DNA of 64,000 bases from Gilliamella sp. ESL0405. GTDB taxonomy: Bacteria > Pseudomonadota > Gammaproteobacteria > Enterobacterales > Orbaceae. The notes under the pieces are model-generated. The model was not told the origin of the DNA. It did not search any database and was given only the letters and a program-made list of their open reading frames with translations. The position numbers and the translations under genes are program-made. Position 1 is the first letter of the stretch; each line of letters opens with the position of its first letter. Positions 5,963 to 41,993 of the stretch are shown here, piece by piece. Location of the stretch: NCBI RefSeq assembly GCF_019469205.1, contig NZ_CP048265.1:1116001-1180000 (forward strand), in the 5' to 3' direction.

Positions 5963-6937
5963 ATGGATATATTCAATGATAAACAAGAGTCAGAACTACT
6001 TACCGAAATCGCAGTTGCCTACTATGAGTATGAACAGACTCAAGAAGAGATTGCAAAGCGATTTGGTATATCACGGATTAAAGTTGGTCGTTTATTAAAA
6101 AAAGCGAGAGCTGAAGGGATTGTTGAAATCAATGTTAAATATCATCCTGTCTTTAGCTCACGAATAGAACAGCAATTTGTTAATAATTTTGGTATCAAAC
6201 GGGCACTGATTGCTTTAGATCATCAAGATGAAGATGAACAACGCCGGCAAGTTGCTGCGCTAGTTTCTAATTACCTATCAAGCACCTTAAAAAACGGCAT
6301 GACCGTTGCCGTGGGACAGGGCCGTAATGTGGCTGCCATTGCCAGCCATATTGGCGTATTTCCCGAAAAACAGTGTAAATTTATTTGTGGAATTGGCGGT
6401 ACACAACGAGTTGGCGAGATTATCGATGCTGACCATATTAGTCGAAGCCTTGCCAGAAAATTTAATGCCACCAGCGAAACATTATATGCGCCAGCTTATG
6501 TTGAAAACCGTGAGTTAAAACGTGCATTTATGCAAAATCGAGTGATCAAAGATACCTTAGAAAGAGCCTCTAAAGCCGATATTGCTTTGGTTGGTCTGGG
6601 TGATATGAACGAAAATTGTTATATGGTTCAACTCGGTTGGTTTACCCCACAAGAGATCACCTACGCCACGTTAAATCAAGGGGTGATTGGTGATATTGCC
6701 GGTTATGGCTTTTTCGATATTCAAGGTAATCCGGTCGATACAGTGATGAATGATCGCGTTATTGGCTTAAGTATCGAAGAGCTACGCAATATACCGTGTG
6801 TGATTGCTATTGCCTCAGAAAATACCAAAGCCACCGCCATTCTAGGGGCGCTTCGCTCCGGTGTTATCGATATTATTGCAACCAGCGCATCAAATGCCAG
6901 AATGGTTTTAAGCCTGCAACAAAATACCAATAAATAA
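5963..6937 (+). CDS. SorC/DeoR-family sugar-binding transcriptional regulator
   Basis: A 324-residue regulator. Residues ~8-55 form a helix-turn-helix (TQEEIAKRFGISRIKVGRLLKKA), and residues ~60-320 form the SorC sugar-phosphate-binding domain with the GxGR-like AVGQGRNVAAIA and VGLGDM motifs. It follows tpiA directly and is the only regulator in the glycerol/DHA cluster, so it most likely senses a sugar phosphate (for instance DHA phosphate) and controls the dhaM promoter. Whether it activates or represses cannot be read here. It ends immediately before the large tandem repeat array. Confidence 0.88.
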   Translation: MDIFNDKQESELLTEIAVAYYEYEQTQEEIAKRFGISRIKVGRLLKKARAEGIVEINVKYHPVFSSRIEQQFVNNFGIKRALIALDHQDEDEQRRQVAALVSNYLSSTLKNGMTVAVGQGRNVAAIASHIGVFPEKQCKFICGIGGTQRVGEIIDADHISRSLARKFNATSETLYAPAYVENRELKRAFMQNRVIKDTLERASKADIALVGLGDMNENCYMVQLGWFTPQEITYATLNQGVIGDIAGYGFFDIQGNPVDTVMNDRVIGLSIEELRNIPCVIAIASENTKATAILGALRSGVIDIIATSASNARMVLSLQQNTNK

Positions 6938-6960
6938 GAAGGTGAATAAGAAACCGATAG

Positions 6961-8350
6961 TTTTTTTACTAAAACATAGGTATTTTCTGAAAGTTTTTGA
7001 CAAGGGTTTTTAACTTTTGCTGATGACTAGTTCCTAGTCGTTATTCTTTGGATGATTTGACAAAGCTTAGCTTTATAGATTTTTCTAAGCCGACAAAGCC
7101 TTTGATCTGTTTCTAAATCGATATTTATGTTTTTTACTTAAACATGGGTGTTTTCTGAAAGTTCTTGGCAAGGGTTTTTAACTTCTGCTGATGACTAGTT
7201 CCTAGTCGTTATTCTGTGGATGATTTGACGAAGCTTAGCTTTGTAGATTTCTATAAGCCGACAAAGCCTTTGATCTCTTTCTAAATCGATATTTATGTTT
7301 TTTACTAAAACATAGGTATTATCTGAAAGTTCTTGACAAGGGTTTTAACTTTTACTGATGACTAACCTTAGTCGTTATTCTTTGGATGATTTGACGAAGC
7401 TTAGCTTTGTAGATTTCTATAAGCCGACAAAGCCTTTAATCTCTTTCTAAATCGATATTTATGTTTTTTACTAAAACATAGGTGTTATCTGAAAGTTCTT
7501 GGCAAGGGTTTTTAACTTTTGCTGATGACTAGTTCCCAGTCGTTATTCTTTGGATGATTTGACAAAGCTTTGCTTTGTAGATTTTTATAAACCGACAAAG
7601 CCTTTGATCTCTTTCTAAATCGATATTTATGTTTTTTACTTAAACATGGGTATTTTCTGAAAATTCTTGGCAAGGGTTTTTAACTTTTGCTGATGACTAG
7701 TTCCTAGTCGTTATTCTTTGGATGATTTGACGAAGCTTAGCTTTGTAGATTTCTATAAGCCGACAAAGCCTTTAATCTCTTTCTAAATCGATATTTATGT
7801 TTCTTACTTAAACATAGGTATTTTCTGAAAGTTCTTGATAAGGGTTTTTAACTTTTACTGATGACTAGTTCCTAGTCGTTATTCTGTGGAAGATTTGACT
7901 AGGCTTTGCTTTGTAGATTTTTATAAGCCGACAAAGCCTTTGATCTCTTTCTAAATCGATATTTATGTTTTTACTAAAACATAGGTTTTTTCTGAAAGTT
8001 CTTGGCAAGGGTTTTAACTTCTGCTGATGACTAGTTCCTAGTCGTTATTCTTTGGATGATTTGACAAAGCTTAGCTTTATAGATTTTTCTAAGCCGACAA
8101 AGCCTTTGATCTGTTTCTAAATCGATATTTATGTTTTTTACTTAAACATAGGTATTTTCTGAAAGTTCTTGGCAAGGGTTTTTAACTTCTGCTGATGACT
8201 AGCCTTAGTCGTTAATCTTTGGAGGATTTGATAAAGCTTTGCTTTGTAAGGGTTTTTAAGCAGTTATATCCTTTGATTTCTTTCTAAAATCAATGTTAAT
8301 AGTTTTATACTAAAACATAGGTATTTTATGAAAGTTCTTGACAAGATAAT
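6961..8350. repeat. tandem array of ~168-bp units (eight full plus a partial ninth)
   Basis: The anchor AAACATAGG or AAACATGGG recurs at 6972, 7140, 7308, 7474, 7642, 7810, 7977, 8144 and 8313, so units are 166-169 bp long. Units differ by scattered substitutions and one-base indels; the last copy drifts and stops near 8350. Every unit holds a GACTAG...CTAGTC dyad and a second dyad around ACAAAGC...GCTTTGT. In the third unit (near 7360) the first dyad reads GACTAA...TTAGTC, a compensatory change. Stops occur in all frames, so it is not a coding repeat. It fills the gap between convergent sorC and pssA. Confidence 0.95.
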
Positions 8351-8518
8351 TTATCTTTTATTGAGATATGAGCGTATTGAAATAGCATAAATAAGTTTGA
8401 AAATTTATGCCCCGGTTAGGATTGGCTACCGGAGCATGGTTGGTATACTATTGCTGGTTTGGATAATTGTTATCAAACATAACTTAATTTGATAAATCAA
8501 AATCAGCAATTTTATTGG
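8351..8518. other. short spacer with two hairpins downstream of pssA
   Basis: A 9-bp stem with one mismatch lies at 8408-8436 (CCGGT/ACCGG core), and a perfect 8-bp stem at 8470-8477 with 8488-8495. Neither is followed by a proper T-run on the minus strand, so termination of pssA here is only suggested. Confidence 0.3.
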
Positions 8519-9874
8519 CTACAGTAAGCGCTTGATAATTCTATCAACCCGAATACGACTAAGTCTTTTAATCAGCTTGTGTACCTGCTTAGGGTAAAAT
8601 TGGCTAGCTTGAATTTGTTGGAAATGCGTAACCAATGTGGTTTTTTCACGAATAGTATCAAGTTCTTGTTGTAGTTGATGTTTTAGCTGGTGTTTTGGAT
8701 CGTGAACTAAAATGCCGTTTTCAAGATCTAAACGCCAAGCTCTCGGATTAAGGTTATTACCGGTTACCAGCATCCAGTCATTATCGACCCAAACCCCTTT
8801 TAAATGATAGGTTTGATCTTGATCTTTCCATAAACGAATAATCAATTGCTCTTTATCAACATACGATTGCAGACGTTCGATAAAGCGTCTTAAATTGATT
8901 TCATATAAATAAGGAAGCCCGCCGGAAATGTTAAATGGTTGATCTTCCGGTATATAAAAGTCATTTGCTACTTTATCACCAATAATAATCTCAACTTTTC
9001 GACCTTTACGTAGTAAACGAATAATGTCGCGTACTAAAATATTCGGTAGATTAAAGTACGGGGTGCAAAATATAATTTTCTTCTGAGTAATATTAACCAG
9101 ATGATGAATAATTTTATTTAACGCATTATTGCGTCCCAACCCTGCAATAGGCGCAACTGATAGCGATCTGTTATCAGTATTGTTGGTGTATTGATAATTG
9201 GCTCCGGAAATGTGCTGGCGTAACGATTTAATTGCCGATTTCAGTTGCTTACGGGTTTTATGATTTTCAATATCTAATCGTTGCAAACCTTCAAACGGTA
9301 AAAAGTTGTCATCAATGTACTTGATCATACTATCGGCTAACGCTTTATTGGTAATAAAGTGATATCGATCATAACGGTATTTATCGAGCTTATGCAGATA
9401 GACATTATTAATACTGGCACCGCTATAAATGACCGTGTCGTCAATGATTGATCCTTTTAAATGTAAAACACCGAGCACTTCCCGTCGATTAATTGGCACG
9501 CCATAGACCGGAATATCAATATCCGGATGTTGCTGTCTCATCTGATAATAGTAGCGTGCATTGGTGTTTGATTTATCTTCGCCAAATCGACCACGCTGCG
9601 CCCGATGCCAATCGACAAAGACTTTGATATCCAGACTAGGGTTGAGTTTTTTAGCTTGATAAAGGGCGGCAAGGATCTCTTTACCTGCTTCATCTTGTTC
9701 AAGATAAAGTGCCACAATATAGATTCGATATTGGGCTTTTTGAATATGTTCAAGTAACGCAGACCGATAACTTTGTGGATCATATAATATCTGATATTGT
9801 TCAGCATTTTGAGGAAGTTTGGCTAATTCATCAAGATGCTTTCGATGATTATATCTTATAAATGGTATTCGCAT
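8519..9874 (-). CDS. pssA: CDP-diacylglycerol--serine O-phosphatidyltransferase
   Basis: PssA makes phosphatidylserine, the precursor of phosphatidylethanolamine, at the inner face of the membrane. The 451 residues match the E. coli protein in length and throughout the sequence. It belongs to the phospholipase D superfamily: two HKD motifs are visible, His138 in HLKGSIID and His357 in HLKGVWVD, at the E. coli positions. No membrane helix is present; the family is a peripheral basic protein, and the C-terminus (RLSRIRVDRIIKRLL) is basic. It is transcribed toward the repeat array. Confidence 0.95.
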   Translation of the reverse strand: MRIPFIRYNHRKHLDELAKLPQNAEQYQILYDPQSYRSALLEHIQKAQYRIYIVALYLEQDEAGKEILAALYQAKKLNPSLDIKVFVDWHRAQRGRFGEDKSNTNARYYYQMRQQHPDIDIPVYGVPINRREVLGVLHLKGSIIDDTVIYSGASINNVYLHKLDKYRYDRYHFITNKALADSMIKYIDDNFLPFEGLQRLDIENHKTRKQLKSAIKSLRQHISGANYQYTNNTDNRSLSVAPIAGLGRNNALNKIIHHLVNITQKKIIFCTPYFNLPNILVRDIIRLLRKGRKVEIIIGDKVANDFYIPEDQPFNISGGLPYLYEINLRRFIERLQSYVDKEQLIIRLWKDQDQTYHLKGVWVDNDWMLVTGNNLNPRAWRLDLENGILVHDPKHQLKHQLQQELDTIREKTTLVTHFQQIQASQFYPKQVHKLIKRLSRIRVDRIIKRLL

Positions 9875-16577: not shown

Positions 16578-16644
16578 CTTTAAAATGTCCGTGTTTTTTA
16601 ATGCATTTTGTATTATAGTGTTTTAAGTCAGTTTTCTGACAAAA

Positions 16645-16822
16645 TTCTCAGGGCGGGGTGTAATTCCCCACCGGTGGTTATAGCCCACGAGCGCTTAATC
16701 GTTTATTTTGTTGGTTTAGTGCGGTATGTTTCCGACTAAACACTCAATATCTTTAATCGATTAAGGTCTAGCAGATTTGGTGTGATTCCAAAGCCGACAG
16801 TTAAAGTCTGGATGAAAGAGAG
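16645..16822 (+). promoter_or_regulatory. FMN riboswitch (RFN element) controlling ribB
   Basis: The hallmark RFN segments are in order: the 5' strand with CAGGGCGGGGTG and CCCCACCGGTGG (16649-16676), the AGCCCACGAGCG block, a variable arm with the TTTAGT.../ACTAAAC stem, the CAGATTTGGTG...CCAAAGCCGACAG block (16771-16800) and the closing TCTGGATGAAAGAG. Bound FMN would lower ribB expression. Downstream, GCCCTGA at 16877-16883 is exactly complementary to TCAGGGC at 16648-16654 inside the aptamer, a likely part of the expression platform. I see no strong terminator before ribB, so control may be on translation. Confidence 0.93.
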
Positions 16823-17042
16823 TAGCTTATCTTTTCTATATTTACCGAAAGGTAAAATCACTATGGTCAAGCACTTGCCCTGATTCTGGTATTTAATTTA
16901 TTTATACTTAATTGAAAAAAAGCAAAGACAAAGCCCTAAATGCGCATACGGCGATCAGCCAGATATATTTACGGCATGTTCTTCGCAAATTGGATTTAAG
17001 TGTAAATACAATTAATTGTATATAACAGGATAGGTAACTACC

Positions 17043-20005: not shown

Positions 20006-20668
20006 GCGATCTTCCTTTTACGATTATTCAATCTTTTCATTTCAATATAAAAAAAATAATTACTGCACTTTTATCAACTTAATCTGTTATATTCTGTTTT
20101 ATTTCTAATCAGTTATAGACAAATTAGTGTTAAATAGCGATGTTAGCTATCAAAAGTAGCAGAAATTATTTTGGGTATTTTATACTGAATTTCGTTTAAA
20201 TTGAAAATGTGATCGTTTTTATACAGTTGTTTACCCTGAAAAGGTGGCTGTTTTTCCCATAATGATTACTAATAAAACAACCAATTATATTATGTTGGCA
20301 TCATTATATTGTCGGCATTTTGATCCTAGCGTTTTTTTAAAAGTTTTACTTTCGTTTGATTGGTAAAAATAATGGCAGCAACAGTCTTAAACATTGACTT
20401 ATAACAGTTTTAGCCTTGATATTTATTTTTCTTCGCTATAAAATCATTGAGTATGTTGAAATTTGTAATAAATTTTTTGTAAAAATGTTTCAGAAACTAC
20501 CTACGTTTTAGTAAAAAATTGCGTTGTTTCTCTACTTTTAAACATCACGATCTTTAGGTGGCAAATTTGTTTAATTTGCGAACCGTCTTTTTATTTTCAT
20601 CCAAAGCGTTAAGGTGAAAAAAGAAAATCAAGCAAAGCGAAAAAGTAATAAATTTCAGTGAGGTAGCT
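20006..20668. other. 663-base divergent intergenic region with a possible attenuator
   Basis: The stretch separates yjiH (leftward) from an SMR gene (rightward). A perfect stem GCAAATT/AATTTGC (20561-20567 with 20573-20579), extended by GGT/ACC, is followed by GTCTTTTT and lies about 90 bases before the SMR start, so it could act as an attenuator. I looked for guanidine riboswitch blocks, which are common before paired SMR genes, and did not find them. No gene is convincing. Confidence 0.35.
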
Positions 20669-24372: not shown

Positions 24373-24781
24373 AGCTATCTTTTTATCAGAAATTTGAGAA
24401 GTATTATAGCGACAATGTTTATAACTACAATCATTATCATGTGACATATTTTGATTTGATTTAATTACCGCTTAGTAACGTTTATCTGTTGGTTATGGAT
24501 ATCGATGAACTACTTCAACTTTTTGTCATACAGCTTTGATTTGTTATTAATGGTTAAATTTTTTGTCAAGAAGTTTCAGAAAATGTATATGTTTAAGTAG
24601 AAACTTATCATCGTTTAGAGTTTGTGATAGAATGTGCGGCAAATTTGAAGGTATAGCTTTGAACAATATTTATTGTGTTGTCTGATTAAATGCTTAACCG
24701 TTCAGTTTTATCTTTACTAGTTGGATGTTGTTGTCCAAAAATCAACTCTCTGTTTTTTACTATAACGATCTGATAAACAAA
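24373..24781. other. divergent srmB/trmA intergenic region
   Basis: AT-rich sequence between two divergent genes. An in-frame extension of srmB reaches 24447 and one of trmA reaches 24725, but neither is supported by homology or a ribosome site. I see no other gene or strong hairpin. Confidence 0.3.
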
Positions 24782-41362: not shown

Positions 41363-41495
41363 TACTAATAACTCAAGTTGATATTTTAAAATTAGGTATG
41401 ATTTTAACAATTTTACCTGATAAAAAGAATAAGTAAGCTTATTTAATTAATGTCGATTAGAAAATCATCTTTAGACTTCCTACTTAAACGTATAC

Positions 41496-41993
<498 letters not shown>

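Follow-up and report, generated by a model that had tools for sequence, protein, structure and literature searches.

The window, a 64,000-nucleotide stretch of the chromosome of Gilliamella sp. ESL0405 (genome G000 in our comparisons), contains a tandem array between two convergent genes. One gene (positions 5963 to 6937, plus strand) encodes a SorC/DeoR/LsrR-type regulator, for which the best E value, 2e-50, lies under the curated cutoff. The other (8519 to 9874, minus strand) encodes a CDP-diacylglycerol--serine O-phosphatidyltransferase with a domain score above the cutoff. Tandem Repeats Finder places the array at 6962 to 8345 (period of 168, 8.3 copies, 90% matches, score of 2216), and no ORF of at least 80 aa is present on either strand from 6938 to 8518. 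The first-pass annotation had described eight noncoding units of ~168 bp in a gap between convergent genes; the repeat and ORF searches and the flanking gene calls agree with it on each point, as do the AAACAT anchors, all nine of which occur at the positions it gave.

Read on the plus strand, the array is composed of nine copies of a 42-bp core that alternate with eight inserts of 124 to 127 bp, giving eight full units and a terminal ninth core. Core starts were taken from profile matches, and the sixth core was lengthened by one base. The cores lie at 6963 to 7004, 7131 to 7172, 7299 to 7340, 7465 to 7506, 7633 to 7674, 7801 to 7842, 7968 to 8009, 8135 to 8176, and 8304 to 8345. The inserts occupy 7005 to 7130 (126 bp), 7173 to 7298, 7341 to 7464, 7507 to 7632, 7675 to 7800, 7843 to 7967, 8010 to 8134, and 8177 to 8303, the last being the most diverged. 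The same profile detects three solitary cores elsewhere in the window, at 20477 to 20517 (minus strand, 34 bits), at 24563 to 24603 (minus strand, where the matching locus of G001 and G011 also has a core), and, more weakly, at 41481 to 41517 (plus strand, 19 bits). The window also includes an FMN riboswitch at 16640 to 16827 (Rfam RF00050, 107 bits).

The core consists of a left arm, TTTATACTNAAAC, a variable middle of 10 to 11 bp, and a right arm, CTGAAACTTYTTGNCAA(G); the consensus can be written as TTTATACTNAAAC, then 10 to 11 variable bases, then CTGAAACTTTTTGACAA. The motif CTNAAAC occurs in it twice as a direct repeat, 17 to 18 bp apart, and the arms are thus direct, not inverted. A search of the array against its own genome, in which 40 of 110 first-look candidates were scored, returned at least 143 matches, and all of those outside the array comprise the core plus at most about 30 bp. 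With a 21-bp right-half pattern and up to two mismatches, 240 core copies were found in 2.81 Mb, compared to 1 for the reversed control. From all 97 minus-strand copies and the first 100 of the 143 plus-strand copies, we located 75 sites, of which 45 have one core and 30 have several; 19 of the 75 are short-spaced tandem groups in which every spacing is 90 to 300 bp. Arrays in this genome range from 2 to 11 cores. Each of the short-period arrays that were read (units of about 104 to 287 bp) has its own insert, and by eye these inserts are unrelated between arrays. The insert of the window array resembles nothing else in the genome among the matches listed and has no match in the loci of 29 relatives, and its similarity to the flanks of the array is not above the control. 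The search of the unit against the genome and its relatives that the first-pass annotation had proposed recovered the 42-bp core, ~240 copies of which are present in this genome, but, among the matches listed, neither the inserts nor their dyads.

Gene context was scored for 54 core blocks, 4 of which lie at stretch ends and were left unclassed. The remaining 50 are convergent (11), codirectional (28), or divergent (11), so the core has no preferred gene orientation, and on this basis a role as a promoter or terminator was rejected. A replication-oriented site was rejected informally because cores of both strands occur on both chromosome arms; the origin was placed near the contig ends from the GC skew of 40 stretches and from an ORF near the contig end that we presume to be mnmG/gidA-like. 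Four of the 54 blocks begin one base past an ORF end (L010, L015, L035, and L037). At L024, L025, L030, and L034, cores occur in pairs separated by about 50 bp, and by eye the variable middle of the second member resembles the reverse complement of that of the first (e.g., ATAGGTGT and ACACCTAT). A hairpin between the core and its upstream flank was also rejected as a general feature, as pairing in 349 copies barely exceeds that with permuted flanks (mean z of 0.18, 9% above 2). For 21 single copies of G000, the mean z is 0.35 with 19% above 2, and a weak tendency toward core-flank pairing may exist in this subset. L219 and L205 score high; at L205 (1655 to 1700) the upstream flank and the middle of a single core form a 14-bp inverted repeat, which is not general.

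The variation within arrays and between species was used to assess constraint on the core. In all 12 arrays with three or more inserts (7 of the 19 groups had too few), conserved core positions vary less than inserts, with mean differences of 0.050 and 0.124, respectively (Wilcoxon P = 0.0005); the remaining core positions give 0.105. The conserved set comprises the 27 positions with an identity of 90% or more across 43 copies drawn only from other genomes, and the value of 0.050 refers to internal cores, rising to 0.064 when end cores are included. Between G001 and G011, 17 of the 18 shared ortholog pairs were compared: 6 of 442 arm positions, 11 of 221 remaining core positions, and 198 of 2,673 flank positions differ. 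The comparison favors conserved arms in that pairs were picked by the presence of the pattern, with up to three mismatches, in both genomes. The window array by itself gives 0.067 for internal cores, 0.084 for all cores, and 0.094 for the insert. Since this contrast is small, the case for selection on the arms rests on the family. Arms more conserved than their surroundings, as a family of binding sites should have, are thus seen across the family and weakly in the window array alone. The core arms look to be under selection, and the slower change of the arms at the family level is the firm part of this sequence-based case.

The core is widespread in Gilliamella, but not uniformly so. A profile built from 65 copies of core-rich genomes, which a diverged variant in core-poor genomes could escape, detects 21 to 161 copies in 24 of the 35 genomes of Gilliamella, against 0 to 8 in the other 11; up to 147 candidates were scored per genome, so that the high counts are to be read as "at least." At least 50 copies are present in 19 of the genomes and 21 to 33 in five. 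Outside Gilliamella, the same profile finds 0 to 1 copies in each of nine genomes from the rest of the family. Two variant core patterns each match 13 of the 35 genomes, with controls of zero. Database records with the 21-base core motif come from Gilliamella and one Frischella, and around the motif some of them are identical to loci of the genomes compared here (e.g., L057 and L081); matches of this length in unrelated organisms are presumably due to chance. In a midpoint-rooted tree of a single protein, PssA, from 30 genomes, the core-poor species form two groups among the core-rich ones.

Many sites are shared between species. For 18 of 20 sites in G011, the surrounding DNA matches a core locus of G001 at 85 to 98% identity; for the other two, the G001 loci retrieved contained no counterpart. 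Comparison of 142 loci of relatives with 52 pieces of G000, which span part of its sites, shows that some G000 arrays (L016, L035, and L009) occupy loci where relatives have one core match; L016 matches loci of G007, G016, G017, and G001, and L035 matches loci of G034 and G001. At the window locus, the flanking gene pair is within reach in 12 of 29 relatives' loci, and none of the 12 has an array. Six of the 12 have a gap of about 100 bp or less and no core. Core-like sequence in the opposite orientation is found there in G001, G006, G011, and G014, and the G011 and G001 copies match pattern C exactly or with one mismatch. The incomplete genomes G004 and G014 give conflicting results between loci, and their assemblies may be mixed. 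An inverted core pair in G014 was considered as a RAYT-type unit and rejected because the ORF that it encloses, 78 aa, is not RAYT sized.

The site next to trkH is the one that we traced through the genus. Across 29 genomes, mismatches to the 29 arm positions rise as core copy number falls (rho = -0.66, P = 0.0001), and flank mismatches also correlate with copy number (rho = -0.57), with G013 contributing most. Genomes with at least 50 cores have 0 to 5 arm mismatches except for G014 (13), and four of the five intermediate genomes, in which the site was seen, have 2, 3, 9, and 13. The eight core-poor genomes of 11 in which it was seen have 5 to 13, against a background of 14 (standard deviation, 1.6). 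Most of these copies, with 12 to 13 mismatches, are near background; only those of G012 and G029 (5 mismatches) and of G024 and G026 (8 mismatches) look like remnants of a core. In 28 of 30 genomes, core-poor ones among them, the trkH stop codon and the next conserved block are 59 to 62 bp apart, which indicates that nothing the size of a core was inserted or removed there. In G000 the distance is 406 bp because an array occupies the site, and in G013 the next conserved block is gone. Core-poor species thus carry at trkH a sequence of the same length that is decayed or unrecognizable.

On balance, we favor the reading that the window array arose by tandem multiplication of a genus-wide DNA recognition site for a putative trans-acting DNA-binding factor. 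The 42-bp core is present at dozens of inherited intergenic places, and its arms would be the contacts for this factor. Lineages that lost the putative factor would have let their core sites decay, and in this species 19 of the 75 sites located are now short-spaced tandem groups of the core with its adjoining DNA.

The first alternative is that the array is a neutral minisatellite, produced by slippage of ordinary intergenic DNA in which the core is an old hitchhiker. In 10 of the 19 short-spaced groups (chance would give about 2), insert-like sequence runs past the outer core and exceeds the signal of every control flank, as is expected of plain tandem duplication of the core and its flank. 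Inserts drift freely, core and insert diversity differ little in the window array, and copy number may be without consequence. The first-pass annotation had held that dyad arms varying without compensation would mark a neutral minisatellite, a description that suits the dyads of the inserts but not the core arms. In all 12 arrays the latter are less variable than the inserts, and between species they have changed less than the flanks; we consider neutrality of the whole array unlikely.

We regard as quite unlikely a second alternative, that these are recombination-site arrays of the NIME or integron kind, with the core as a recombinase site and the inserts as cassettes that are gained or exchanged between cores. 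Consistent with such arrays, the core has two arms that flank a variable middle, and in the other 9 of the 19 groups, that of the window included, no insert-like sequence above the control is found past the outer cores. The trkH array of G000 also fits, as the flank known from relatives resumes intact after the last core and the insert is unlike either flank, and between cores at several loci there are recurring modules of roughly 400 to 1,500 bp that carry a GC-rich element. On the other side, the short inserts look unrelated between arrays, that of the window has no counterpart among the matches listed, 10 groups extend into the flank like ordinary duplications, single sites are mostly common to G001 and G011, and the core arms are direct. 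Among recombinases, the domain scan covered the IS110/Piv type, to which that of neisserial intergenic mosaic elements (NIME) belongs; the IS110-type domain PF02371 occurs in a single one of the 35 Gilliamella genomes, which is not G000. Separately, a phage or plasmid origin of the array was rejected, as there was no match in phage or plasmid collections; of two viral-contig scans, one was empty and the other gave a single match, in DNA that looks chromosomal.

The longer modules, with core spacings of about 400 to 1,500 bp, carry the GC-rich element and in some cases CRISPR-like repeats. The element is hairpin rich, about 300 bp long, and recurs between cores at several loci (L034, 2600 to 2950, and similar); subthreshold Rfam matches do not explain it, and in G013 a stretch that begins like it comes after trkH. 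CRISPR arrays similar to type I-F are multiplied in this genome (L026, L030, L013, L024, L009, L025, and L199), with about 130 CRISPR-like repeats in 7 of 30 stretches by a lax pattern used without a control. Several lie in modules of roughly 0.8 to 1.5 kb that consist of two cores, the 300-bp GC-rich element, a leader-like stretch, and a mini-array. A genuine type I-F cas operon is present at L199 (2486 to 11514), and at L222 of G011 three cores lie amid CRISPR-like arrays that repeat approximately every 61 bp.

A third alternative would make the dyads of the inserts the working part of an RNA element, either repeated terminators or small-RNA genes. Both dyads are present in the array units, and 97.1% of 136 dyad cells are paired. 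Breaks affect 3 of 56 cells in dyad 2 (one pair each in inserts 1, 6, and 7) and one pair of dyad 1 in insert 4. In unit 3, dyad 1 changes from G-C to A-T on both arms (GACTAA/TTAGTC), and 1 nt of the loop is deleted; the same deletion occurs in unit 8, where that pair is G-T, and the break in unit 4 is at the adjacent pair. The first-pass annotation had taken the two-arm change in unit 3 as a hint of selection for RNA pairing or for a symmetric protein site and had proposed a covariation test. The change itself is real, but covariation is no better than in shuffled alignments, the count of two-sided changes being reached in 205 of 500 shuffles with one compensatory cell observed. Folding of three units gives z scores of -1.9 to -3.4 on the plus strand and -0.4 to -1.1 on the minus strand, and there are 7 terminator-like matches versus 0.9 expected, although these are copies of two motifs. 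Promoters show no excess (6 found versus 5.6 expected), an Rfam scan at the gathering score identifies no family in the array, and the dyads occur only here, with no match elsewhere in the genome among the matches listed and none in the 29 relatives' loci. Given the lack of both an orientation preference of the core and covariation of the dyads, a repeated RNA is very unlikely.

Mobilization of REP/BIME-type elements by a Y1 (RAYT) transposase is hardly credible, since the core is indeed short, intergenic, dispersed in singlets and clusters, and of species-specific consensus, but two defining features have already failed: the consensus has no visible palindrome and pairs little with its flanks, and a scan of the 35 Gilliamella genomes for Y1_Tnp (PF01797) matched a single genome, other than G000.

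A multiplied recognition site thus remains the reading that we prefer. Of the terminator or small-RNA array, protein-binding array, and recombination hotspot that the first-pass annotation had offered, a protein-binding array fits best, although the shared part is the 42-bp core that contains the anchor rather than the dyads. A more specific version, which we put forward tentatively and hold to be possible rather than probable, is a genus-specific chromosome-organizing system: a putative protein whose bipartite site of 42 bp occupies roughly 50 to 150 inherited intergenic places. It would have been lost in at least two lineages, where the sites were left to decay, and many sites would have become tandem clusters in this species. 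The site is noncoding, dispersed, inherited, and apparently selected, shows no tie to gene direction, and is all but missing from some lineages, a combination that points to a trans-acting factor, as yet undescribed, in a major bee gut symbiont. A presence/absence comparison of core-rich and core-poor sister species could reveal the gene for the putative factor, and the arrays of 2 to 11 cores provide a natural series on the effect of site number. A full-text literature search, judged by titles and the openings of abstracts, returned no description of such a repeat in Gilliamella or Orbaceae.

Among known systems, the nearest organization is the NIME, of which the Gilliamella array is not a member. 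As outlined in PMC3898611, the NIME repeat dRS3 is a 20-bp sequence with inverted ends (ATTCCC N8 GGGAAT) that is used by a phage integrase and alternates with sequences of 30 to 160 bp in intergenic arrays of 200 to 2,700 bp, with hundreds of copies. As far as that outline goes, the two share a short repeat whose ends are fixed and whose middle varies, intergenic alternating arrays, and hundreds of copies, and most short Gilliamella arrays pair a short repeat with elements of 30 to 160 bp. The core consensus lacks the inverted ATTCCC/GGGAAT ends of the 20-bp dRS3; the Gilliamella repeat is 42 bp with direct arms that look selected, each short array has one insert type, many sites are inherited singly across species, and PF02371 is lacking in 34 of the 35 genomes. 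REP/BIME elements and their RAYTs, in the account of PMC2817692, likewise involve a dispersed, high-copy-number intergenic repeat that forms clusters and has been suggested to provide protein-binding sites, but the Gilliamella core is not visibly palindromic and its genome has no Y1 transposase. CRISPR arrays also alternate repeats with spacers and have a repeat at each end, but their spacers are unique and of constant length, whereas those within the Gilliamella array, at 124 to 127 bp and with a mean mutual difference of 0.094, are copies of one sequence. The matS, SBS, and parS sites are sparse chromosomal families, each serving one chromosome-organizing protein at tens of inherited sites. 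Those sites are shorter and their proteins are known, whereas the Gilliamella site is 42 bp and its protein putative, but inheritance at tens of sites is common to all of them.
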